Source: Chamaelirium japonicum (taxonomy: Eukaryota; Streptophyta; Magnoliopsida; Liliales; Melanthiaceae). Taken from it: 64,000 nucleotides of DNA. Under the pieces are notes generated by a model, which saw nothing but the letters and a program-made list of their open reading frames with translations, did no database searches and was not told where the DNA came from. Shown here in pieces: positions 3,953-64,000 of this stretch (position 1 is the first letter of the stretch; the number at the start of each line of letters is the position of its first letter). The translations under genes were made by a program, and so were the position numbers. Location of the stretch: positions 32,597,126 through 32,661,125 of the forward strand of contig OX393549.1 in assembly GCA_947650365.1 (NCBI GenBank), written 5' to 3'.

Positions 3953-5250
3953 TCAATTTGTTTGGTGATTGAGCCGTCGCAGTCCGATGCCGTACACCAT
4001 CTTCTGGAAAGTAGACTTGGGCAAAGCTTTGGTGAAAAGATCCGCAAGATTGTCGCTTGACCGTACTTGCTTGACTTCAATCTCCCTTTTCTTCTGAAGT
4101 TCGTGGGTGTAGAAAAACTTTGGTGAGATGTGCTTTGTTCGATCTCCCTTGATGAAGCCAGCTTGAATTTGAGCAATACATGCGGCATTATCTTCGTGGA
4201 TAACTGTCGGCTCTTTGGTAACTGAAACCAACTGGCAACTGTTTCTGATGTGCTGCACAAGTGACCTCAACCATACGCATTCTCTACTTGCTTCATGCAG
4301 GGCTAATATTTCAGCATGGTTCGATGATGTAGCCACAAGTGTTTGTTTGGTCGATCTCCAAGAAATAGCTGCATTGTTATTCAAAAATACATACCCTGTT
4401 TGGGATCGACCCTTATGGGGGTTAGAGAGAAAACCTGAATCTGCATAACCAATCAAGTGAGGAGTACCACAAGAATAAAACAATCCCATATCAGTGGTTC
4501 CTCGCAAATATCTAAATATTTGCTTTATTCCATTCCAATACCTAAGAGTTGGTTCTGAACTGTATCTAGCCAATAGATTAACAGAAAAGTATATATCTGG
4601 TCTAGTACATTGAGCTAAATACAATAAAGCACCAATAGCACTTAAATACGATTTTTCAGAACCAAGAATAGTTTCATGTTCCTCTTTAGGTCTAAATGGA
4701 TCTTTATGAATATCAAGAGGTCTAACTACCATGGGAGTGCTTAGTGGGTGACATTTATCCATATTAAATTTCTTTAACAAATTTTCAGTATATAATGATT
4801 GATGTACTAAAATCCCACTAGAGTTACGCTCGATCTGCAGGCCGAGACAAAACTTAGTATCACCAAGTTCTTTCATTTCAAACTCCCTTTTTAGATAATC
4901 AGAAGTTTTCTTGAGCTCTTCAGGAGTCCCAATCAAGTTTATGTCATCCACATAAACTGCAATTATTGTAAATCCATTTTCTGATTTCTTTATGAAAACG
5001 CATGGGCATATGAGATCATTCTTATAACCTTCCCTAGACAAGTATTCACTAAGGCGATTGTACCACATCCTTTCGGATTACTTCAGGCCGTACAATGCTC
5101 GTCTTAGTTTTATCGAGTGCGCACTCTTTGATGTTGCTTCAGGCAACTTGAATCCTTCTGGGACTTTTGATGTTGCTTCGGGCAACTTGAATCCTTCTGG
5201 GATTTTCATATAAATATCTGTGTCTAGGTTCCCGGGTTTCTGCAGGAATC
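3953..5250 (-). pseudogene. pol: Copia reverse transcriptase / RNase H, interrupted
   Basis: The main open frame (3953-5068) contains the RT motif YVDD, then the RNase H block (QTGYVFLNNNAAISWRS, HEDNAACIAQ) and the LADLFTKALPKSTF C-terminus. Upstream, the frame runs into an in-frame TAA in the motif normally read YGLKQS and a TAG in the motif RLVAQGF, both explained by C-to-T change of a Gln codon. Between the RLVA*GFLQKPG segment and IYMKIPEGF several dozen residues are missing, including the stretch that carries the first catalytic Asp of RT. The coding sequence for PEGFKLPEATSK is tandemly duplicated (about 5130-5205). The product cannot be an active polymerase. Confidence 0.9.
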
Positions 5251-6577
5251 CCTAGGCTACAAGCCTTGCCTTATATCTAGCGATTTCATTATTTTCATTT
5301 CTTTTCCTTACAAACACCCATTTGAAACCTACAGGGTTTACGTTATTTGGTGTTTGTACTATAGGTCCAAATACTCCACGTTTCTTGAGAGATTCAAGTT
5401 CAGCTTGAATAGCTTCTCTCCATTTTGGCCAATCAGTTCTATGTCGACATTCATAGATACTACGTGGTTCATTATCTTCATCATCGCCCTTTGTTATTTC
5501 AGTAGCTACTTTGTATGCAAATATGTCATCGATGACTATTTCCTTTCGGTCCCAAATTTCACCCCTCATATGGAATATTGAGCTCTCATTATTTGGTACC
5601 GGTACCTTATCCATAATCACTGCAGGGATCTCTTCAGGAGTTTGAGGAAAATTTGGCCGTTGGGAAATATTTTCTTCTGGAAAAATATGGTCCATAATCT
5701 CTTGTGGAGCATTATGACCAGGTTCTTTTGGAACCATAACTTCTTCTGGAGTTTTAGGATATGATTTCTCATTCAACTTCCTCTTCCGGGGAACTGAATC
5801 TTTGGAACCTATAGGTCTGCCACGTTTCTGACGTGCATCATTTTCATTAGTGGGAGTTGGAATATTAATTCTTGCAGGTACATTCTTGGTTGGAACAAAC
5901 GACTTAGTTACATTAGTTGCATCATTGAAGGCATCAGGTAATTGATTTGCGATATCTTGCAAATGCAAAATCCTTTTTACTTCTACCTCGCATTGGGGAG
6001 ATCTAGGATCTAGATGAGACATAGTGGAAGTATTCCACGATAATTCACGCCGTTCTTCGGGAACAGGTCGTTGCCTAGAAACTTCTTTATCTCCCCCTAA
6101 CGACGGGAAGACTGTCTCATCGAAATGATAATCTGCAAATCTAGCAGTAAATAGATCACCTGTTAAGGGTTCTAAGAATCTTATGATTGAAGGTGAGTCA
6201 AAACCTATATAAATCCCCAATCTACGTTGAGGACCCATCTTAGTTCTATTTGGAGGGGGAATAGGGACATGCACAGCACATCCAAACTTTCTAAGATGAG
6301 ATATATTGGGCTGAATACCTGACACAAGTTGTGCAGGAGAAAAAATATGGTATGAAGTAGGTCTTAGTCTAACAAGATTAGCAGCATGCAAGATAGCATG
6401 CCCCCATGCAGAAATTGAAAGTCTGGATTGTAAGAGTAATGGTCTAGCTATTAATTGCAAGCGCTTGATAAGAGCTTCAGCAAGGCCATTCTGGGTATGG
6501 ACATGGGGGATAGAATGTTCGACTTCTATTCCTATGGATGTACAGAAGTTTGATAATCTGGGATAATAATCTAGCAA
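5251..6577 (-). pseudogene. pol: Copia integrase C-terminal half and start of RT
   Basis: A 441-codon frame carries HTQNGLAEALIKR, with the Glu of the integrase DDE triad, then ISAWGHAILHAA, a Lys/Arg- and Pro-rich linker, and the RT start (YKARLVA). It overlaps the next frame by about 100 bases. The residues expected between SQIIKL and NFCTSIGIEVEH are absent, including the Asp-bearing LDNAGEF segment of the core, with a frameshift at the same join. Integrase is therefore inactive. Confidence 0.88.
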
Positions 6578-7346
6578 ATGCTAAATTTCTAGTAGAGAGT
6601 AGGCTCACGTATGACCATCTAGTAGATGCATCTATTAGGACCATAAAATATCTAAATGGACCACTAGGAGGGTGTATAGGACCACAGATATCACCTTGAA
6701 CCCTCTGCAGGAAGGTAGGTGATTCTGTCTCTATTTTCTTAAAAGAAGGTCTAGTGATTAACTTCCCTTGGGAACAAGGGTCACAAAAATGGTCATTTGA
6801 AAAAGTCAAACTTCGATTGTTAAGAGGATGACCATAGGAATTATGAATGATCTTTCTAAACATACCTGACCCTGGGTGACCTAATCTATCATGCCAAAGG
6901 ACCAAATCTTCAGGATTTGGAAACTTTTGGTTCAAGTGAGTAGCATAGGACTCCATAACCCCAATGTGGGTAAAGTATAACCCTAAAGATAGGGTTGAGC
7001 ATTTTTCTAGTATTGAAATATGCTCTCCGTTTTTAGATGTGATGCAGAGGTATTCTAGATTGCCTTCATTTGTAGTTTCTAAATGATATCCATTTGCTCG
7101 GATGTCTTTGAACCTCAGTAAATTTCTTCTGGAATTTTCTGAGTATAGAGCATCCTTAATTAGCAAATGAGTACCATTAGGTAAAAGTATATGGGCTCTT
7201 CCGGACCCTGTAACTATGTCAGTAGGGCCAGCCACTGTAGTAACCATACGTGAATTATATTCAATGTTTGTAAAAAATTTTCTGTGTTTCAGTATGGTAT
7301 GTGTTGTTGCATTATCTATCAGGCAAATCTCTTTACAGTTGGTCAT
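6477..7346 (-). pseudogene. pol: Copia protease, GAG-pre-integrase and integrase N-terminus
   Basis: The frame begins near the protease active-site region (IDNATTHTI where most elements have D-S/T-G/A) and continues with the protease fold (GSGRAHILLPNG). It then has the zinc-binding GAG-pre-integrase segment (LWHDRLGHPG, CDPCSQGK) and the integrase start with its first Asp (GDICGPI, FMVLIDASTRWSYV). It ends by frameshift at the integrase deletion junction. Confidence 0.88.
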
Positions 7347-7639
7347 CGTTCCTAAATTATAAGTTATGAGTCAATAAATACCATAAGAGAAGTATCAATG
7401 ATAAAACTTACTAACACAATTTCTAAGTAAAATCATCAGAACGATAATATAAATTGATAATATCCAATAGAATATAAAAATTACTCAACAATGTCTGACA
7501 GAATAAATACTACTGAGTAATGTCTGACTGGAAATAAAAACTACTTAGCAATGTTTGACAGAAAATAAAGACTACTTAGCAATGTCTGACGGAATAAATA
7601 AAAGAAAAACTAAAGTCTTCAGAGATCCCAAGATTCAGG

Positions 7640-10667: not shown

Positions 10668-13600
10668 CTACCCTTGCATCAGGTCTATACCGATGTTGGG
10701 GTGCCGGACATCCATTTGCCTCGACCCAGACCATCCTCCCATCGCTGGAGAAGGGCTGGGGCTGAGGCTCTGATCGGGCAATGTGATAGACGGTGCACTC
10801 TGCTTCTCGCCGACTAGATGCTCAGATCCGGCACCGGCCTCCTCTTGGCCAGTTTTCTCTTTGTTCTTTGATTTCGTTCCGCCGTAGACGAAGCTACCCA
10901 CTATTACCTGCAATCAGTTGTAATATTATCCTTCTGAAGCTTTACAGAGTATAAAGGGCTACTACTTTAGGCTCAACTTAGTCTGGTCAAATTGAGATGT
11001 TTGGAGATGAAATGCACCGGATTTCAATTCCAACTTACAACCGCAGAGGGGTTCTCCCAATGATTCCCATAAGAAAAGAGCATGCAAGCATTCAGAGATG
11101 GTGGATCGGAAAATGCATGAAGTGATTACCTGGACAGCGCTTGCGGCTGTGAGCAACCCACCAACCCCGCCACCAATAACCCGACCGTCGGAGCCAGAAA
11201 GGGAAATGCTCAGACCCCCACTCCGGGTTCGGGATCCACCATCATCAGTCAACAAGTAAGAGCCAGACAGGCATAGTATTTCAAAGCGGCCCTGTCCATG
11301 TTTGAAGCAAACCAACACAAAAAATTAAAGCACACAAAAATTAACTGGCTGTGAAATGCTGATTGATCCCATGTTCTGCATTAAGATAATTTTGGGTACA
11401 GACCTTCTCAGTGTCATCCGACAAGCTAGACCACTTTGCAATCACAAAATTTAACTACTCGTCATGAAAAGAAAAAAAAATAATCACAGGACAGAATTCT
11501 ACTGGATAGACCTTAAGTCATAAATCCAAAAGGTAAAGTTTCCTAGCAAAAAATATAAAAGCAAGAAACGCTAAAGAATAGCAGCTTGACAAACATCGCA
11601 TGCGACTTTCTCTTATCAAGTCTATGGAATTTTTAAGGAGAGATCTTTTGAAGAGAGAAGGAAACATAAGCAGTTCAACTTAGGTTCCGTTGGTTTGGCG
11701 GAAGATGTTCTGGAGAGTATTTATAGAGAATATAGGTCGTAGAGATAAAATGTATGCCGTAGAAAGAGAATAAATGTTGTAGAGATATTATGTAACCGTC
11801 GTAATGTTGTAGATAGAATCTATGTTGTAGAGAATGTATGTCGTGCATAGAGTGTACGTTGTAGAGACGGAATTTTGGTTATAGAGTAAATCTAGTGAAT
11901 GTAGGTCGTACATAGATTGCATGTTGTAGAAAGAGAATGTAGGTTGCAGAGAGAATATACATTATAAAGAATGTACGTTGTACAGATAATAATGTTGGAG
12001 AGAGAAAATAAGTCAGAGAGCCTGCACGTTGTGGAGAGAATGTACGTTGGAGAGTGTATGTCCTAGATAAAATAAATGTCCTAGAAAGACAATAATTGGC
12101 CTAGAGAGAGAATGTAAGCTGTAGAGAGAATACATGTTGTAGATAGAGAATATCAGTTGAAAAGAATCTATGTTTCAGAGAGAGAATGTATGTTTTAGAG
12201 AGAATGTAGGTTGGAGAGAGAATGTAAATCATAGAGTGAATGTATGTTTTGGAGAGGATGCAAGTTGGAGAAAGAATATATGTTGTAGATAGAAAATGTA
12301 AGTCGTAGAGAGTCCTACCAAACAAAAAAAAAAAGGTCGTAGAGAGAATTTATGTTGTAGAAGGATGCATTTGGTAGATAGAGAATGCAAGTAAGTCATA
12401 GAATGTATGTTTCAGAGAGAATGTGCCATAGATAGAGAATGTAAATCGCAGAAAGAAAGTGCTTTTTCAAATAAAACTAGTGGAATATGCCATACCACAT
12501 TTTTTATAGAATTATAAATGGGGCTTTTTTAAGTATTACAAATTCTAGGTACATTAGCACTACTTCATGGGATAGTTACTTCACATCCCAAATGGAGTAA
12601 AAGTTTTACGATCTCAAAATACTTCCCAAAATATGACTTACCGTACATTTTGCATCAAGCCCGACACAGCCTTAGAAATTAATAAGTGCTGAATTGTTGG
12701 CATGCATACTTGGACTTGCCTCCCTTCAGTGCTTTCAGTCATTGAATCGGGTAGGGTAGGTTTTAGTGAAGAGAACGAACTGATAAAAAAATCAAAAATA
12801 AGGATTGAGAAAGCATGAGGGAGGCATCCATGAAAGTAGACTAGATGTAAAAAAGAAGAGAGAAAAAACCACCATGCTCGCTGTTCGTCGGAAACAATGT
12901 GCTCGTTATGGGCACCGGGTCTACAAACACCTCATCATCAAACTTGATCTTTTTTAACCACCGGAGCTACTGAACTATGAAATGGATAATATGCACAAAA
13001 TGCAGAAAAAACAGCATTTACAAAGAGTTGCAAGTCAGGGATAACTTCTTGACGCGTCACACTTCTTGGGGGAACCAAAGAGTCCCACGTTAGTGTCTTG
13101 GAGGAGGAGCACCAAGAAATCCTGAGGCATCTCACAAAATAGGCCGCAACAGAAAATTGTAGCAAAGAAGAGCGAAGAAATTGGAAGTTTGATTGCTTTA
13201 ATTAGTGGCCAAAGGCCCTAAGTGGACCTCCTAGGATAGGATGGGAGGCTGGTGTGTAACATACAATGGCTCATTGTATAGTACATCATATCTGCAGCAT
13301 CCTATCATATTCTTAGGGATTCCACTTAAATTGGGCAAGTGAGACTCCTAGGAGGCCGGCAGGTATGACGAAACAAGTGAAACTCCTAGGAATAGTGATG
13401 CAGGACACTAATGCAAAAGGCTATATGATGATTCATCAATAAGATTCTCCCAAGTAATTTCAATATAGAATTTAGGATTCAGTTTCTGTTATAAAAGTAT
13501 TCAAAATAAACGATTAAGACAATGATTGGATGGAAAAAAAGCAAACCGGTAGTGTCGAGTATTCAAATTAATTAAAAGGTCGATCGTTTGGAAATCAAGA

Positions 13601-15376: not shown

Positions 15377-18300
15377 GGTTGTGAGGGAGAGAGACAAGCG
15401 AACGGCGGACAGGTGCGGGGGGACGGTGGGCGGCTGCAGTCGGGCGACGGACGGGCGGCTAACAGCTGTAGTTAGGTGTGAACGGAGGACGACTGCAGTC
15501 AGGCAGACGACTGCGAACGGCGGACGACAAGTGGACGTTTGCCTCTCTGCTCTCTCTCTCCTCTCGCTCGATACAAAAAACAGGGTGGGTGGGGTTAAAT
15601 CTTGGATAAATTACACATAGACCCCCTACAGTTTGAAAAACATATCACTTGCAATCCCTCCAAAGGGGGCATTTGTAGGGTTTTAAACATAAAGGGGGTG
15701 TAAGTGATAATCGATCAAACTATAGGGGTCTTTGTGCAATTTACATTTAAATCTTTTAGTGTGGGACAATAGGTTTGGGTTTGGGTTTAACTTTTAACCA
15801 AACCCAAACTCGATAACCCAAGCCTAAACCGGTCAGTCGTATCCCTCCTGTATCCCGCCATATCCCTCCCGTATCCCGGCCGTATCCGAACCACATCCTG
15901 GCATTTTTAAATCCAAGATATGCCCGAAACGTATCGGACACATATCCGAGCCGTATCCGTGTCCGATATGTATCCGGTACGGGTACTTCATGTATTTTGA
16001 AGTATACGTGCTTCATAGATTACAACTAATAACTAAGTTTAAATTAAAGTTAATTTGGCACAACTGAGATGTTTGATCACACAATCGCATAAGTGACCAC
16101 ATATGCGATCGGCTCAATTTGAGTTGCGCGGTTGCAATTCGCACTTCTGACAACATTGCTTGTAATTTGTAAGTAATCTAGGAAAATCAACTAATCTGTG
16201 TAAAAAAAGTAAAGATAATATGTATAAATTGCAGAGAAAACAACACTCTGAAGGGTGTGAAACAAAAAGCCCTACAATAAGTGTTGCATTTCTAGCAACG
16301 AACTAAGGATCACACCTTAATGTTTCCAAGGCATCACAACAAGAGATTCTGAAGCATAGCAGAAAATTGCAACAAATAAGAGAAAGGACTCTTTTTCCTT
16401 TAATTTGGTAGCCAAAGACCTCCTTATATGGTTCATGGGATTCAGAGACCTGTTCATTTGAAATTGAACTCTTATTCAATGAAAGACCTATTCCATCTAA
16501 AACAGGACAATTTCACACGGATTCAGCATCCTAAAAATGAGTTTAGAGTCTTTAGACTAATATAAAGTAAGAAGATAGGCACCCTTGTGCTTCTTGGATG
16601 GTAGGTTGCCCTCTTCTTGGTAAGATAAGTTCATGGGCTGCTCCATTTTCTTCTTTAAATATTATTCTGCTTTGCAATGCGTCAACTAGGCTCGGTATTA
16701 AGATACAAGCCATTAATCAACTATGCTTAATTCCATGATGGTTTAGATAAAGCCCCGGATAAGTTCTGTATGGCATCAATGATTAACATGTAAGAGCTAC
16801 ATACTATTAACGAGGGTAGAGACATTTTCAGAAATATAATAAAGATGATGCATGAAGGAACCAGACTACTTTAATGCAGGGATAAGAAATAGTGTGTGAA
16901 TGAACCTCATAAGTGATTGTGCCACCAGAAGACGCGGGCTGCCGAAGAGTCACTGTTGAGACTGCACCATTTGCTGAGAGGATACACACAGCCCTTGGCC
17001 CCTGTTGTGAAAATGACATTATCTTTGCTGCAACGTCCTGCACAAAGAATGCCATTATTTTCGCGAAGAGCATTCAAGTCATGATCATGGAATATCATAA
17101 ATGATCAATCAGACTGAAAGGAGCCAGTCCACCCAGAGAGTGGTAATAGTACAAGGAAAATTCTAGAATCCAATACTCATCCAAACGTTGAAATCCATAA
17201 CTCATGCAGTACCAACACAAACTTTTCATCCAAGTAGGTAGAAGACCAATTAATTATCATGTATTCCCAATAGTCCATGATAATAACAATTTTATGAATC
17301 ACACGAAAAATATGATAATAAACCAACAGAAAACTTAAAAATGTAAGTATGATTATTTTGCATACTACATCGTAACCAAGTGATGGTACCATTCAGAAGT
17401 AAAACACTGTAGCCATTGATATGTGGAACAAGCATGTTCTATTCATGGTGTCTGACAAGCTTGGCCAGTGCATAATTGTATGGAATTATCAGTGTTCAAA
17501 AACTTGAAACTCGGACTCAACTCGAAATCCAGCTGAGCCGAGTAAACTCGGTCCGACTCGACCGAGTTTAATCCCAATTCGTTCCAACTCAGCCCAATAA
17601 CTCGACTTAAAATTTTGCCGAGTCGAGTCAACTCGATCCGACTTGGCCAAGTTTTACTGAGCTTTAAAACAGTGGGTATTATAACACTAGGATAATTATG
17701 TTTAAGTATGCATCTCAAAAATTAGTATGTATATCCCTTATAAGAAAGGTGACTAAATAGTAAATATGCTGTCAAAGTAGAAGTTATAGTTTAGAAAGTA
17801 TAACCTAGTTATTGAGTTATAGACTTATAGTCCAAAGAAGTATATTTAGTAGCCATGGATATAACTTATTTATCACCGACTTGTACTTGAATTAGAGAAA
17901 GAGCTGTTTTATAATGGTCAAGTCACAGTGTTACTGATCCATCTTGAAGATGGTTAAACTTATTAACTGTTTTATTTGTAACATGATCTTGTACTTTTCT
18001 ATTGTTGACGCTTCTGGTTGTTCATGCTAAACTTTTCTAACACTCGGAGTAAGGCCTATTTATAAGTTCTTGTCTTGTTCTTCTCGCCAGCTGCCAATGT
18101 TGCCATTGGAAATGACAAAGCAGTAGGGTGCATGGAATGTCATGTATCTCAAACACTCGGAGTAAGGCCTATTTATAAGTTCTTGTCTTGTTCTTCTCGC
18201 CAGCTGCCAATGTTGCCATTGGAAATGACAAAGCAGTAGGGTGCATGGAATGTCATGTATCTCACCTTAGAGGTACTAAAAAAAAAAGAAGCTTCGCAAT

Positions 18301-21300: not shown

Positions 21301-24124
21301 TCTTTTGTCCTTTTGTTTGGATTCTAAATCTTTTGAATGGTTTGCAATACTAGGTTCCAAAGATTCAACACCTAATTTTGGATGATGTTTCATTCAAGCT
21401 TAGGGATTCATTTCGTTTATAGGTCATAGAACCTACCTCAAACATGAAAACATGTAAGACTATGAGAATCATGGATTGGGTAAAATATTTTTAATAAATT
21501 GATAGGTAGACGTTCTGCCCTAGGTTCATGATCTCTTGTAGAGTTTGAATCATTACAACTGAATATTACTACAATTCAATTGGAGTAACCGATCTCACCT
21601 TCAGCTTGCGGTGACTCCTATTTTATTCAGGACTTAAGGAGGATGGAGAAAGAGGGCGTTCTATGTGGCACCCCTGCCCAAATAACTATAACATTTTTTT
21701 TTTGGGAAGCGCGCAGTTGGGTCCAGTGCAATTCACTTATGGGGTGATGGTCATCAGGCAACTGTAATAAAAGATATGTCTATATATTTGACTTCAAATA
21801 ATGTGTTTTGTTTTTAATTTTCTAGCAGTGTTTTCTAGGATCTTTTGCGAATGAGTTATATATATCATCACCACCTTTGACTAATTTCATAGTTTCTTTT
21901 CGTAATGTTTTTCAGGGCATCATGGTGAGCCCAATTGGTCTTTCTTCTTATTGATCTTATTTGCCCTGTATGTAATGAAGTTAAACAATCATGTTAATAG
22001 TGTTTATTCTGAGATAATGGTCATGTATGTAATTGATGTTTTATGAAAAGACCTTAGAATCATATATATATATAGAGCAGGGTTTTAAATCTCGGCCGAT
22101 ACTGATATGTATTGGTTTTGACGGAGTCGAGACCGGTACTGCATCCAATCCCGATACCTGTCCCGTACCGGCCAGTTCAGGCCTGTACCGACCAAGGTTT
22201 AAAATCACGGTATTGGTCGCGGTATCGGTCGACCCCGAACCGGTATGTACCGGCCGATACGTACCGACCGATACGGACCGATACCGGTTGAGAAAAAAAC
22301 CCTGAAAAAAATCCAAAAAATCCAAAAAAAAAAAATTTAACCTGTCGGTACCGGCCGATACGAGCCAGGTATCGGGATCGGATGCAGTACCGGTCTTGAA
22401 CCGGCCAAAACCAGTACGTACCGGCCGGTACGTACCGGTATCGACCGAGATTTAAAACCCTGGTACCGACCGGTACCAACAAGTTAAATTTTTTTTTTTT
22501 TTTTTTTGGGTTTTTTTCCTCAATAGGTATCGATCCGTATCGACAGCTACCGGTACATACCGGTTCAGGGCCAACCGATACCGCGATTTTAAACCTTGGT
22601 ATATAATATAGGTTTTATGAGAGAGAGTGAGAGATTGGGGGGGGGGGGATTAACGGGAGGAAGTTCCATCGAAAGCGACCTCCGGAGGGGGCGGGCGGTG
22701 GTGAGCATGGTTGTGGACACCTGAGTCGGTGGGGGAGTGCCGTCGAAGGCGGCCATGACCATCTGAAGTAGTAGTGTGCCGACAGACATGCGGGCATTAC
22801 TAGTACTCATTATAGTTGAAGCGATTTGACTTATTTTTTGCAAACTTCAAAAAAAAAAAAATACTGATACAAAATCAGATTCCATTCAAAATTGTAAATT
22901 GGAACATCATAAGAATCCAAGACCAAATTAGTAGGTGTTTAAGTAGAAATGAAAGGCACAAGCCATACCTGTCCTATAGGAATTGTAGTAGAAATGAAAG
23001 GCACAAGCCATAACTCTCCTATAGGAATTGTAGTAGAAATGAAAGGCACAAGCCATACCTCTCCTATAGGAATTGTAGTAGAAATGAAAGGCACAAGCCA
23101 TAACTCTCCTATAGGAATTGTAGTAGAAATGAAAGGCACAAGCCATACCTCTCCTATAGGAATTGTTATCACATGCGGAGTAAAACCCATTCCAGCAGAA
23201 CCAGAGATCCATTCCCCTGTGAAAAAAAGAGTCAGTGATGTACTCAGACATGTGCAGGAATTCTTGATTACTGGACCCTCGGATAGCCGATAGGCCACCA
23301 TTTATCTAGTTTGTGTATACAATGCTCAAGGAATCATACCAAAATTGCCGATCAAAATTTCTTTATTAGTAATAAATCGAGCAAAAGACAACTGAGAAAT
23401 GAATCAAATGACAATCGACAAAACAGTTTCAGAACAGCAGGAAAAAAACCATCCACTTGGTGATTTCATAAGATTCTTGCTATTGTTCTAAGCTAATATT
23501 ATCATCATCTCCGAAATGAAATTGAATGATTACATTAAACTATGTGATGTCGAACTTTATACGAAACAGAATTCAGAGCAGAATCGAAAGATGCAATCTT
23601 CAACACCAACACATTGTCAAAGCAAGGAACCAGATCAATCAGAGAAAGGGCAATCCCCGCTACTAACTAGCAAAATGGTGTTAAAACTCACCAAGAGAAG
23701 CCAGCTGCTGCTTCCGCCCGGTTCCGGGCGGTCGCCCCCTGCCCCTTCTCTGCTTTCCATCCACTATCCCGGACCCCGACACTGATCCAGACCCAGCAGG
23801 GGAAGACATCGGTGAGAGGGCTAACGACACAGTTCCATCCGGCCCGTACTTCCGCGGCCTCCCCCTCTTCTTCCTCACCGGCTCTCCTGACGATCCCATA
23901 CTAGCGAGCCCCCCGCCAGCACTGACGCCATGGGGGGAGGCCGACGGCGAAGGCTCCACCTGAAATGCCGATCCAATGGACCCACTCCCGATGACGGAGG
24001 AGTGCGGGGTCAGAACCGGGTTGGTACTAGGCATCTGCCGGAACCCAGGTGGTGCATGCAAGCCTGGCGGCGCGCCGATCCCTCTGTGGAGGTAGTATGA
24101 GGACATAGCTTCTCTCCCATCCAT
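10668..24124 (-). CDS. AHL: AT-hook motif nuclear-localized protein (AHL, two AT-hooks plus PPC/DUF296)
   Basis: Five exons: 23692-24124, 23149-23216, 16906-17037, 11130-11291 and 10668-10907, all with GT/AG boundaries and consistent phase, giving 344 residues. Exon 1 starts MDGREAMSSYYLHRG and carries two AT-hooks, KKRGRPRKYGPDG and RRGRGRPPGTGRKQ, which bind the minor groove of AT-rich DNA. Exons 2-5 build the PPC domain: GFTPHVITIPIGE, DVAAKIMSFSQQGPRAVCIL, GRFEILCLSGSYLL, GGGVGGLLTAASAVQ, VIVGSFVYGG. PPC domains mediate AHL oligomerisation and nuclear partner contacts. Two hooks and a multi-exon structure fit the type II AHL group. Introns 2 and 3 are about 6.1 and 5.6 kb and hold transposon debris. 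The exon 2 donor is iterated (separate entry). All exons are open and conserved, so the gene is probably functional. Confidence 0.95.
11700..12470. repeat. Degenerate GTAGAGAGAATGTA minisatellite in AHL intron 3
   Basis: About 0.75 kb of variants of ttgtagagagaatgtatg, recurring roughly every 18-25 bases with many substitutions and length changes. Minus-strand frames through it show repeated YILSPT/KTYIL units, a by-product of the repeat and not a protein signature. Confidence 0.7.
13830..14930 (-). pseudogene. Ty3/gypsy gag-pol relic in AHL intron 3
   Basis: Minus-strand translation gives, in order, a zinc-knuckle remnant (YFRCQGFGHITIQC, first Cys changed to Tyr), a degraded protease-to-RT linker (SIVYNGQRIKLNPLQ) and the RT entry motif (DLVPRASPPNLPPYW, then QVDELLRKG). 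Stops and frameshifts are frequent. No LTRs were found. The relic is in the same orientation as AHL. Confidence 0.65.
14948..16018. mobile_element. Element with GGATACGGG-rich inverted ends
   Basis: The left end ctaagaagcacggatacg is mirrored by cgtatacgtgcttcatag. Both terminal zones are dense in ggatacggg or its complement (14957-15030 and 15830-15990). The middle has a (GA)n run at 15328-15374 and a GC-rich stretch. A 143-bp MITE is nested at 15604-15746. No clean target duplication was found, so the superfamily is undecided. Confidence 0.5.
15604..15746. mobile_element. Mutator-like MITE, 9-bp TSD, nested
   Basis: Ends ggataaattacacatag and ctttgtgcaatttacat are inverted. The 9-bp ttaaatctt flanks both sides (15595-15603 and 15747-15755). 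The interior also pairs (catagaccccctac with taggggtcttt), so the whole element folds back. Its ends resemble those of the GPX intron element at 1758-2290. Confidence 0.7.
17490..17674. mobile_element. hAT-type MITE with ACTCGG-rich interior
   Basis: Begins cagtgttcaaaaac and ends gctttaaaacagtg. The flanks ggaattat and ggtattat form an 8-bp duplication with one mismatch, as for hAT elements. The interior is a chain of direct and inverted copies of actcgg and gagtcgagt. It lies in AHL intron 2. Confidence 0.6.
18039..18264. repeat. Perfect 113-bp tandem duplication in AHL intron 2
   Basis: Two adjacent copies (period 113 bp), each starting cactcggagtaaggcc and ending catgtatctca, with no difference seen. 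Unlike most repeats here it has no transposon ends, so a recent replication or unequal-exchange duplication is likely. Confidence 0.85.
18991..19245 (+). pseudogene. Copia RNase H fragment, antisense in AHL intron 2
   Basis: An 84-codon frame matches the C-terminal RNase H of copia elements: YADADVAGDF, GGAISWQSKLHKCVALST, EPEYIAITEAGKEM. No RT, LTR or upstream domain accompanies it, so it is an isolated relic. Confidence 0.8.
19978..20498. mobile_element. hAT-type element with CCTAGGCG-rich ends
   Basis: Starts cagtgttccaaaaacc and ends ctttttagaacatct. The flanks cataaaac and catgaaac form an 8-bp duplication with one mismatch. Both terminal regions are packed with cctaggcg, ctaggcgg and gcctagg words that can pair with each other; the centre is AT-rich. 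Relatives lie at 45316-45974 and, truncated, at about 44925-45075. Confidence 0.6.
20507..22077. other. AHL intron 2 sequence without a recognised gene
   Basis: 20680-21230 is C-rich with an open plus-strand frame of 131 codons that resembles no family I recognise and is low in complexity (Ser/Pro-rich). 21231-22077 is AT-rich. Neither shows splice-conserved coding or transposon ends. Confidence 0.4.
22078..22598. mobile_element. CCGATAC-rich hAT-like element containing a copy of itself
   Basis: The outer element runs from cagggttttaaatctcgg to ccgcgattttaaaccttg. An inner element (22193-22462) runs from caaggtttaaaatcacgg to ccgagatttaaaaccctg and is flanked by gtaccgac on both sides (22185-22192 and 22463-22470), an exact 8-bp duplication. 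Both interiors are made of ggtaccg, cggccgatac and related palindromic words. The outer flanks are TA-rich and give no clean duplication. Confidence 0.6.
22607..22945. other. Spacer with G-tract, no gene recognised
   Basis: A run of about ten G at 22638-22647 and a GC-rich stretch lie between the CCGATAC element and the AHL donor repeat. A minus-strand frame (84 codons) has no family signature. Confidence 0.35.
22946..23170 (-). repeat. 45-bp in-frame tandem repeat spanning the AHL exon 2 / intron 2 splice donor
   Basis: Five head-to-tail units of 45 bp. Each repeats the last 15 coding bases of exon 2 (IPIGE, or IPIGQ in the last), the donor and 30 intronic bases. Read on the minus strand, units 1, 3 and 5 have gag or cag followed by GTATGG, a usable donor. 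Units 2 and 4 read gagTTATGG and lack that GT. The fifth has the better consensus CAG|GTATGG. Because 45 is a multiple of 3 and no stop occurs, use of donor 3 or 5 would insert 30 or 60 residues (IPIGEVWLVPFISTT type) after the first PPC strand. Confidence 0.9.
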
Positions 24125-56559: not shown

Positions 56560-58735
56560 CTAACTTCGTGATTAACCCTGACCCAAACCCAGACCCGGAC
56601 CTGCTAACTTCGTGCCGGGTCTGCCGTGTCGCGTCCAAAACAGGTCGGGTCGTGTCAGGTCGGGTTGGGTTGGGTCAACAGATCGGGTTGTGTCAGGTCG
56701 GGTTGGGTCAACGGAACCTATGTAAACCTGTTGGGTTTGGGCCGGGTCAACAGATCGGGTTGTGTCAGGTCGGGTTGGGTTGGGTCAACAGATCGGGTCG
56801 TGTCAGGTCGGGTTGGGTCAAGACGGGTGGGATTGGGCCGGGTTGGATTGGGTTGGTTCAAGTTGGGTCAGGTCGGTTCGGGTTCGCTCGGGTCGGATCG
56901 GGTCGGGTTTACATGACCCATTTGGTAAACGGGTCAAGTCGGGTCAATCGGGTTGTAAGGACAAACCCAATCCCGACCCATTAAATAAACGGGTCAATCG
57001 GGTCGACCCGTTTATGACCCGAACCCGTTTAGAGCAAACCCAAACCCGCTAACTTCGGGTCGGGTTCGCTAGTCGGGTCAAGGATTGCCACCCCTAGTCG
57101 TGTCATGTCGGGTTGGGTCAACAGAACCTATGTAAACCTGTCGGGTTGGGTCAAGACGGGTGGGATTAGGCCAGGTTGGATCGGGTTGGGTCAACAAAAC
57201 CTATGTAAACCTGTCGGGTTGGGTCAAGACGGGTGGGATTGGGTTGGTTCAAGTTGGGTCAGGTCAGTTCGGGTTCGCTCGGGTCGGGTCGGGTCGGGTT
57301 TACATGACCCATTTGGTAAACGGGTCAAGTCGGGTCAATCGGGTTGTAAGGACAAACCCAATCCCGACCCATTAAATAAACGGGTCAATCGGGTCGACCC
57401 GTTTATGACCCGAACCCGTTTAGAGCAAACCCAAACCCGCTAACTTCGGGTCGGGTTCGGGTCGGGTTGGCGGGTCGGGTCAAGGATTGCCACCCCTAGT
57501 CGTGTCAGGTAGGGTTGGGTCAACAGAACCTATGTAAACCTGTCGTGTTGGGTCAAGACGGGTGGGATTGGGCTGGGTTGGATCGGGTTGGGTCAACATA
57601 ACCTATGTAAACCTGTCGGGTTGGGTCAAGACGGGTGGGATTGGGCCGGGTTGGTTCAAGTTGGGTCAGGTTGGTTCGGGTTTGCTCGGGTCGGGTCGGG
57701 TCGGGTTTACATGACCCATTTTGTAAACGGGTCAAGTCGGGTCAATCGGGTTGTAAGGACAAACCCAATCCCGACCCATTAAATAAACGGGTCAATCGGG
57801 TCGACCCGTTTATGACCCGAACCCGTTTAGAGCAAACCCAAACCCGCTAACTTCGGGTCGGGTTCGGGTCGGGTTGGCTAGTCGGGTCAAGGATTGCCAC
57901 CCCTAGTCATGTCACGTCGGGTTGGGTCAACAGAACCTATGTAAACCTGTCGGGTTGGGTCAAGACGGGTGGGATTGGGCCGGGTTGGATCGGTTTGGGT
58001 CAACAGAACCTATGTAAACCTGTCAGGTTGGGTCAAGACGGGTGGGATTGGGCCGGGTTGGATTGGGTTGGTTCAAGTTGGGTCAGGTCGGTTCGGGTTC
58101 GCTCGGGTCGGGTCGGGTCGGGTTTACATGACCCATTTGGTAAACGGGTCAAGTCGAGTCAATCGGGTTGTAAGGACAAACCCAATCCCGACCCATTAAA
58201 TAAACGGGTCAATCGGGTCGACCCGTTTATGACCCGAACCCGTTTAGAGCAAACCCAAACCCGCTAACTTCGGGTCGGGTTCGGGTCAGGTTGGCGGGTC
58301 GGGTCAAGGATTGCCACCCCTAGTGGTGTCAGGTCGGGTTGGGTCAACAGAACCTATGTAAACCTATCGGGTTGGGTCAAGACGGGTGGGATTGGGCCGG
58401 GTTGGATCGGGTTGGGTCAACAGAACCTATGTAAACCTGTCAGGTTGGGTCAAGACGGGTGGGATTGGGCCGGGTTGGATTGGGTTGGTTCAAGTTGGGT
58501 CAGGTCGGTTCGGGTTCGCTCGGGTCGGGTCGGGTCGGGTTTACATGACCCATTTGGTAAACGGGTCAAGTCGGGTCAATCGGGTTGTAAGGACAAACCC
58601 AATCCCGACCCATTAAATAAACGGGTCAATCAGGTCGACCCGTTTATGACCCGAACCCGTTTAGAGCAAACCCAAACCCGCTAACTTCGGGTCGGGTTGG
58701 CGGGTCGGGTCAAGGATTGCCACCGGCCCCTAAGT
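56560..58735. repeat. Tandem array of 0.40-0.42 kb GGGTCGGGT units inside CACTA
   Basis: Five units end with ggattgccaccccta or a variant near 57098, 57498, 57905, 58322 and 58725. Each contains caacagaacctatgtaaacc, gtcaagacgggtgggattgg, ttacatgacccatttggta, ttgtaaggacaaacccaatc and cgacccgtttatgacccg in the same order. The repeated 64-138 codon frames are read from the repeat and are not genes. The unit end equals the inverted terminus of the hAT elements at 25079 and 37981. Confidence 0.85.
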
Positions 58736-62185: not shown

Positions 62186-63600
62186 GGACCATTATAATAC
62201 CATAACCGAGGTGGGACTAATAATACCATTAGATGTAGATGAAAGATAGGGTAACGTAAGAGAGAGAAAAAAAAAGGAGAGAGAGAGACAGAGAGCCCTA
62301 GAAAAGGTAAGAGAAAAAGAGAGATAAGGAAAGGGAGAGAGAGAAGGAAAGAGAGAGAAACAGGTTCGGATTAGAAAGAGAGTCGGAGACGAGAGGGAGA
62401 AACAGGGATAGAGAGAGAGAGAGAGAGAAATCTGGACGGTAGCGACGACGAGCGACAACAGCGAGGGCCCCACGGTGACTAGGGCATAGGGAGGAGGCCG
62501 GCGCGGCGAGAGATTGAGCATATCCGACGAGGGCTGCGGTGGCAAATCCGGGCGGCGAGGGCTTGGGATCTCGCAGGTCTCGGATGTTTGACAGTGGCGC
62601 AAGGTGGCTGGGCCAGACCTGGAGCACATGCGGCGGTCAGTGGCACGAGGAAGGGAGACAGGGGCGGCCAAGGGGCGTGGCCGGCCGGACAGCGAGCTAC
62701 ACAGATCTCGGAGGTTGCCGGCAGGCCAGACCAGATCAGGGATAGCATCGACCACGGCAAGGAGGCTGACAGAGGCCGGCGTTGGTTCCTGACGACGAGC
62801 ATGGTTAGGTTAGCTCTGGCCCGGAGGTGCCGGATATAGAGCAGATCGGTAAGCAAGAGGTGGCGGTTGGTCGGATCTGGCCATGACAAGGCACACAAGA
62901 AGTGGCGATCGGTCGGATCTGGGAGGGTTGACGGTTTCAGGCAGCGTCCAAAATTCGGATGGAGCACGGCCAACCAGATCGTCTGTGCAGGCGGCAGCCG
63001 AAGCTCGTGCAAGTGGCAGGACACGAGAGGGGAGAGAGGTCGACGACAGATCAAAGTCGCCCAGTGCAGATCGCAATCTCAGAGGAAGCTGGAGGAGCAG
63101 CTCGCAAGCAGCACACACGACGTAGAAGGCTTCGCATGGATCTCGACGAGGAGGCCACTCGGAGAGAGGGAGGCACGAGATCCAGAATCCAGGATCGAGT
63201 GCACGGGATCGGGCCGCTCAGGAGAGAGAGAGGGGGGGGGGGGGGGGCGCTCAGGAGATCGAGACGGAATCAAGACTTAAAATTAATTAATTTTTTTTTT
63301 ACTATGCCTGGCCTCCCTGAGGTTAGAGAGGCATCTCCAAACCCTAGACCGGCTCTGATACCATGTTACGAAGAGAGAGGGAGAGGGACTAGGGTTTAGA
63401 GAGAAAACTCCTTGTATTATCTCATCAATATTACATAAGACTACCTCTCCTTATATAAGGAGGGAACACACACCATTATAATATCATAACCGAGGTGGGA
63501 CTAATAGTAATACTAACACTACATACCTCTCCTTATATAAGGAGGGAACACACACCATTATAATACCATAATCGAGGTGGGACTAATAGTAATACTAACA
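62186..63600 (-). mobile_element. Short-LTR (family S) retroelement remnant, minus strand
   Basis: A 155-bp LTR (63364-63518) has TG/CA ends. Just inside it, on the minus strand, lies an exact TGGTATCAGAGCC primer site (complement at 63351-63363). The interior (62250-63300) is GC-rich leader-like sequence without an identifiable gag or pol. A fragment of the LTR (ccattataataccataaccg) at 62186-62225 may mark the other end. The LTR's right half is repeated in tandem at 63519-63600. (G)n at 63233-63247 and (GA)n tracts are present. Confidence 0.6.
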
Positions 63601-64000
63601 CTACATCTAATAGATTTTATCATAGAACCAACGGTTCACACTTTGAACTTCGAAGTTATAATTTTCTATTTTTAAAAATTATATATTTTCTTAATCCAAT
63701 AGTAATAATTTTGAAATGCTCCATAATATTTTCTAGCTAGATATTGATCGGTTGTAATTTTGTATTTGGCGATATGCACATATGTGGTATCAAAAAGACT
63801 TTAACTAAGGCTTTTCATAGATTTTATATTGATTTAAGCAATACTAATAAGTTTCTATATAGAAAAAGAAAACTATTTACATAGAGGATAATGATTTGAT
63901 TTTGTATGGGGCCTTCACTATTTAAGTAGTTCTGGGTATTCTTTTCGTATTGAGCTTGGGCTATTTATTTTGATTAGGCCTTTGGAGACTTTTTTTCATA
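63601..64000. other. AT-rich right edge, no gene
   Basis: No coding, RNA or transposon-end signal was seen in the last 400 bp. Confidence 0.4.

Follow-up and report, generated by a model that had tools for sequence, protein, structure and literature searches.

A splice junction copied several times in tandem raises the question of which of its donors is used and what protein results. We addressed this for an AHL gene of Chamaelirium japonicum, in which the border between exon 2 and intron 2 is repeated five times, within a 64,000-nt window (the whole stretch of DNA analyzed, contig OX393549.1, positions 32,597,126 to 32,661,125 of assembly GCA_947650365.1); positions below are those of the window. 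The explanation that we favor, with a probability of roughly 0.45, is that this is a young minisatellite-like array of a clade-B AHL junction, from which most mRNA would encode the normal 344-aa protein and a minority would encode products with 30 or 60 further residues.

As summarized in Table 1, Tandem Repeats Finder (TRF) detected a 45-bp tandem array at 22942-23166 on the minus strand, with 5.0 copies, 97% matches and a score of 429, and a chance origin of the repeat was rejected on these values. TRF and a copy-by-copy reading both bore out the preliminary description of five tandem 45-bp copies at an exon-intron junction. The interval given there (22946..23216) did contain the array, but it started 4 bases late and overran to the start of exon 2, and its division of the unit into 15 exon and 30 intron bases had to be corrected to 18 and 27. 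The unit is ACAATTCCTATAGGAGAG/GTATGGCTTGTGCCTTTCATTTCTACT (slash, exon-intron border), whose first 18 bases form the end of exon 2 and whose remaining 27 form the start of intron 2; the flanks do not extend it on either side, and there is no partial copy. The copies stand in the order A-B-A-B-A', with copies 1 and 3 identical (A), copies 2 and 4 identical (B), and copy 5 being A'. Only two sites vary among the five, donor position +1 (G to T in copies 2 and 4) and donor position -3 (G to C in copy 5), and the donors read GAG/GTATGG in copies 1 and 3, GAG/TTATGG in copies 2 and 4, and CAG/GTATGG in copy 5. The native exon 2 donor (23149/GT) lies inside the array, in copy 1, and AGGT, which when duplicated is able to supply both a GT and an AG, is found in copies 1, 3 and 5. 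The reading frame is free of stops across the array and ends at the TAA at 22941-22939. The earlier claims of an array without a stop, of donor ends at 23149, 23059 and 22969, and of three intact donors alternating with two broken ones agreed with this reading. Of the nine arrays that TRF gives for the gene span once overlapping rows are merged by hand, this is the only one touching an exon border; since a 225-bp stretch placed randomly in the gene span meets one of its eight exon borders 11% of the time, such a location is not very improbable.

The AHL gene that hosts the array is intact and has five exons on the minus strand, with GT-AG at all borders and one 344-aa frame. Its PCC/PPC domain (PF03479) scored 89.8 bits in the 344-aa form against a cut-off of 25, which upheld the previous gene call. 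Exon 1 carries RKKRGRPRKYG and RRGRGRPPGTGRK, judged by eye to be two AT-hook-like motifs, the number expected in type II; a profile scan of the AHL protein gave no AT-hook profile at E ≤ 0.001. Exon 3 closes with TYE and exon 4 opens with GRFEIL, and PMC4209074 describes GRFEIL at an exon start as characteristic of intron-containing type-B domains. On the PCC/PPC domain and this exon border, the host is classed as a clade-B (intron-containing) AHL gene.

Splicing from donors 1, 3 and 5 is predicted to yield proteins of 344, 374 and 404 aa, respectively, all in frame and all open, matching the 30 and 60 added residues that had been proposed for donors 3 and 5. In a Pfam scan of the 344-aa and 404-aa forms, the PCC domain of the latter scored 81.8 bits and its match started at residue 222, within the last copy, so that the strand end before DVAAK would come from the last copy. 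Of the unspliced open reading frames (ORFs), that of exon 1 gave no Pfam match, and that of exon 2 plus the array gave two weak matches below the cut-off. When the bacterial PPC protein 2hx0 is aligned (E 0.002), the insertion point falls just past the G-E/G-Q pair preceding the DV/EV stretch, which we take to be a strand-to-helix turn.

Next, the window's own genome (1.52 Gb, 3253 contigs) was searched with a 331-bp junction query, and two matches were found, the query itself and C2:33087384-33087479 (84% DNA identity). A dispersed repeat family was not supported by this search, which ignores words of very high frequency and gives scores to the top candidates alone. The second match belongs to an intact five-exon AHL gene, a putative homeolog, which shares 258 of 335 aligned residues with the window gene at a nonsynonymous divergence (dN) of 0.14-0.15 and a synonymous divergence (dS) of 0.50 (YN00) or 0.65 (NG86). 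The homeolog has one copy of the junction, ATAGGAGAG/GTATGACTTGTGCC, and past its donor the second codon is TGA where the window gene has TGG. The 14 intron bases following donor 1 (window 23148-23135, GTATGRCTTGTGCC) are common to the homeolog (L002, reverse strand, ~1500-1520) save one base, and may be either a short regulatory stretch or a chance likeness; the only other blastn match to L002 in intron 2, at window 22534-22598, is repeat-like in appearance.

A protein search of the genome gave at least 36 AHL-like matches, of which 10 represent exon 3 in genes with introns; two of these are the window gene and the homeolog, and 8 are other genes. In the 10-kb stretches taken for the latter, each ending shortly past exon 3, exon 2 was located in 6 of 8 genes, all 6 ending GAG/GTA, and was not found in those of L030 (containing 2203 Ns) and L032. 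Exon 2 ends GAG/GT in the homeolog and the 6 paralogs alike, and within the next 1 kb none of the seven has a further exact copy of the last 12 exon 2 bases (361 bases only for L035). We took a single copy with GAG, found in 7/7 paralogous junctions, as the ancestral state. Because all seven have a single GAG/GT junction, the array probably arose in the window gene and is likely to be young, much younger than the pair that this gene forms with its homeolog. It would have originated when the exon 2/intron 2 junction was duplicated in tandem, in the manner of a minisatellite, and the copy pattern suggests an order of steps in which a single junction became A-A-A' by duplications, the middle donor was lost to give A-B-A', and a 90-bp duplication then produced A-B-A-B-A'. 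As one mutation and one 90-bp duplication suffice for the A-B-A-B alternation, this gives no evidence that selection acted repeatedly. Both variable sites fall in the 9-nt window of the donor, for which uniform placement would give a post hoc figure of ~4%.

To compare the donors, we used their predicted duplex energies with U1: donors 1 and 3 gave -6.3 kcal/mol, donor 5 gave -7.7, and the broken sites gave -1.7; the last donor had previously been credited with the best consensus, and the energies concur. The donor of the homeolog scored -5.8, the window gene's other donors -8.9, -4.2 and -8.1, and the exon 2 donors of the six paralogs -5.8 to -9.6, while no further GT between exon 2 and 22850 reached -4. 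Donors 1, 3 and 5 are ordinary donors for this gene, since their energies compare with those of its other donors and of the paralogs. In a single-sequence RNA fold, mean unpaired values were 0.09-0.14 at donors 1 and 3 and 0.34-0.36 at donor 5. The RNA fold had a z score of -2.16 (2 of 200 shuffles were equally stable), a stability that is partly expected because the palindrome CCTATAGG is present in every copy.

These values bear on a rival explanation, less probable than the one we favor and in our judgment rather unlikely, that donor 5 dominates. This would mean an exon 2 enlarged from 68 to 248 nt and, as main product, a 404-aa AHL protein with a 60-residue repeat insert, in which the last copy (ISTTIPIGQ) stands in for the original strand before the helix DVAAK. 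Within the array, donor 5 has the best U1 duplex, shows less pairing than the other two intact donors, and is intron-proximal; moreover, the Pfam match moves to the last copy at a loss of only 8 bits, and Q at the changed position is present in the bacterial protein 2hx0. However, a conserved domain would have to take 60 inserted, largely hydrophobic residues, and with GAG in all seven paralogous junctions Q would be unusual in the clade. The AT content of the array (61%), lower than that of the next 100 nt (75%), also points to donor 5, but this argument is local, as the 500 nt past the array are at 56%. The 91-aa peptide of exon 2 plus the array, folded alone in a single-sequence structure prediction, showed strands only, with a mean predicted local distance difference test (pLDDT) value of 47; this sits poorly with a dominant donor 5 and was not used as evidence.

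A human precedent also speaks against donor 5. The nearest known system that we found is the variable number tandem repeat (VNTR) in intron 18 of ABCA7, in which 25-bp units occur in ~12 to 427 copies in people and the exon donor coincides with the first GT of the repeat (PMC5954066). There, an alternative donor retains one unit in 2 +/- 1% of transcripts, a figure unchanged with array length, and the length-dependent effects are skipping of the next exon, the main one, and lower expression. By analogy, a second donor in the AHL array might be little used. Both are tandem repeats that adjoin an exon and hold the native donor, but the ABCA7 unit is frame-shifting and has no exon bases, whereas the AHL unit has 45 bp, stays in frame, includes 18 exon bases and has alternate donors broken.

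The duplicated AGGT raises another explanation, which we consider improbable, namely that the array is a nascent intron or is re-spliced. A-B-A forms a 90-nt unit with AG/GT at both ends, which might be removed as a small intron or in a zero-exon recursive step, and the broken middle donor would favor a 90-nt intron over a 45-nt one that is too short. Splicing from donor 1 to the AG/GT of copy 3 or copy 5 would take out 90 or 180 nt and recreate a donor, so that the final message would look normal. Besides the AGGT in copies 1, 3 and 5, the array has acceptor-like sites, as duplication sets a pyrimidine-rich intron start ahead of the exon-derived AGs, a point absent from the preliminary description. 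By pyrimidine fraction, a crude acceptor measure (19 bases, -22 to -4), the ATAG sites of copies 2-5 scored 0.68, within the range of the gene's four real acceptors (0.79, 0.53, 0.47 and 0.47). The AG/GT points reached 0.53, and closely before them lie other AGs (ATAG and, in copies 1-4, GGAG); use of the first AG would add 5 nt and shift the frame. Furthermore, the lower size limit of plant introns is near 90 nt.

There are precedents for such an outcome, here limited to the available parts of the reports. In potato RdRp, an acceptor side duplicated once gave a new intron with 106 RNA-seq reads (PMC4974935), a tandem-duplication route reviewed in PMC3443670. As in the AHL gene, the duplication lies over an exon-intron border and the signals are inherited from the parent junction; unlike it, the AHL array is on the donor side and has five copies, and its splicing is a prediction from genome sequence. 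The fission yeast genes SPOG_01682 and SOCG_00815 have introns made of 24-nt repeats (PMC3629103), supported by spliced expressed sequence tags, one removing more than the annotated intron and the other covering little of the 5' exon. They share with the AHL array several tandem copies with proto-splice sites, but these repeats are exonic, carry AGGC, and are not described at an existing donor, where the AHL array lies. Re-splicing has been proposed in Arabidopsis, for an exon one nucleotide long (PMC4674806).

The array is also stop-free and a multiple of three nucleotides long, and in sequence it could serve as intron or coding, like exitrons, which lie within exons, use both splice sites, are stop-free and often have lengths divisible by three (PMC4484396); unlike them, it offers candidate alternative donors of an existing intron. 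An open frame as a sign of function was rejected as uninformative, since 333 of 463 AG/GT sites in the window (72%) are equally open for nine codons in donor phase. Identical copies have one common fate as to stops, and the prior odds of a unit divisible by three are ~1/3. A nine-codon open stretch past the donor is seen in only 2 of the 7 related genes (the homeolog and 6 paralogs).

That chance level is in keeping with a neutral or artefactual array, an explanation that we regard as unlikely though slightly ahead of the nascent intron. Donor 1 would be used essentially always and the rest be an inconsequential intron minisatellite, or the copy number would be an assembly error. Near-identical copies may be miscounted, and intron 2 also holds a perfect 2.0 x 113-bp tandem duplication (window 18039-18264, 100% matches, TRF), which is either a second recent tandem duplication or an assembly effect. 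On the other side, three kinds of copy in order would make at least three copies hard to explain by misassembly alone, 225 bp is short relative to long reads (if long reads were used), and copies of the native donor in near-identical context would hardly be wholly silent.

We come back to donor 1. Because each copy holds the last 18 exon bases, donors 1, 3 and 5 would compete in near-identical local exon context, and because the unit is 45 nt long and open, every donor choice stays in frame, so that the array could persist with the gene unbroken. Most mature mRNA would encode the 344-aa protein, via donor 1 or after trimming back by inter-copy splicing, and a minority would carry the added residues, placed after the first PPC strand and before the helix. 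A conserved domain probably needs the normal protein, and the little use of the second donor in ABCA7 favors the same view. Several points weigh against it. The U1 pairing of donor 5 is the stronger (-7.7 versus -6.3), and donors 1 and 3 are more paired in the predicted single-sequence fold. Among equal donors, the intron-proximal one is preferred in vertebrate in vitro work, and donor 5 is nearest to the acceptor. The dN/dS mostly reflects time preceding the array, the ABCA7 precedent is inexact in that its units start at GT without exon bases, and, by analogy with that gene, exon 3 (132 nt) might be skipped, again in frame. On the sequence, we lean to donor 1 over donor 5.

Table 1. Features of the AHL gene and its junction array, in window coordinates
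Feature	Position	Strand	Basis
45-bp array of exon 2/intron 2 junction, A-B-A-B-A'	22942..23166	-	TRF and copy listing
Donor 1, native, GAG/GTATGG, last exon base 23149, GT 23148-23147	23147..23149	-	U1 duplex -6.3 kcal/mol; position conserved in paralogs
Copy 2 broken donor, GAG/TTATGG	23102..23104	-	Copy listing; U1 duplex -1.7 kcal/mol
Donor 3, GAG/GTATGG, last exon base 23059, +30 aa	23057..23059	-	Spliced translation, U1 duplex
Copy 4 broken donor, GAG/TTATGG	23012..23014	-	Copy listing, U1 duplex
Donor 5, CAG/GTATGG, last exon base 22969, +60 aa, strongest of the array	22967..22969	-	U1 duplex -7.7 kcal/mol
TAA stop adjoining array, reached upon intron 2 retention	22939..22941	-	Translation
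Acceptor-like sites from duplication: CTATAG/ ends 23109, 23064, 23019, 22974; AG/GT zero-exon points 23059, 22969	22969..23109	-	Pyrimidine fraction
AHL exon 1 (coding), with start codon at 24124 and two AT-hook-like motifs	23692..24124	-	Translation; tblastn versus homeolog, 112/161 aligned columns identical
AHL exon 2, matching that of the paralogs (68 nt, phase 0, IPIGE/ at its end)	23149..23216	-	Acceptor TTTTTCACAG/GGGAAT; paralog ends
AHL exon 3, DVAAKIMSF...TYE, 132 nt	16906..17037	-	Translation, protein search
AHL exon 4, starts GRFEIL	11130..11291	-	Translation, protein search
AHL exon 5, coding part and stop	10668..10907	-	Translation

Elsewhere in the window, TRF detected a 417-bp unit in 4.9 copies at 56690-58710, composed of TCGGGTTGGGTCAA-like sub-repeats, and an 82-bp tandem duplication (2.0 copies, 97% matches) at 63442-63606. 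Long ORFs on the minus strand at 3953-7370 resemble a fragmented Copia-type retrotransposon polyprotein, a label given by eye.

The preliminary description had called the array unusual. Its kind is known, from the ABCA7 VNTR and from intron gain across a border; the combination of alternately disabled donors with a unit that carries exon bases and preserves the frame was not found elsewhere in a literature search that covered few subscription journals. Splice-site choice as a device that sets protein length, as also proposed there, is possible on the sequence, and the claim is weakened because open frames are common (333/463) and unit retention in ABCA7 is so low. In its strongest form, which we hold to be the least likely of the readings considered, the array would be a frame-safe length dial under selection, with copy number and alternate donor silencing setting 30-residue steps into the PPC domain. 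The G-to-C change would then have strengthened the last donor, and each unit would carry a spare strand end (TIPIGE), so that the protein could refold on the last copy with the earlier ones looping out.

Although the array may be neutral, it presents a natural competing-donor experiment, with three intact donors in nearly the same context, two single-base knock-outs between them, and a single-copy paralog as control. Transcripts would show directly how plants pick one of several tandem donors, and whether repetition at an exon border can step protein length without loss of frame or start a new intron. If inter-copy re-splicing in 90-nt steps proved true, the array would also be the birthplace of an intron.

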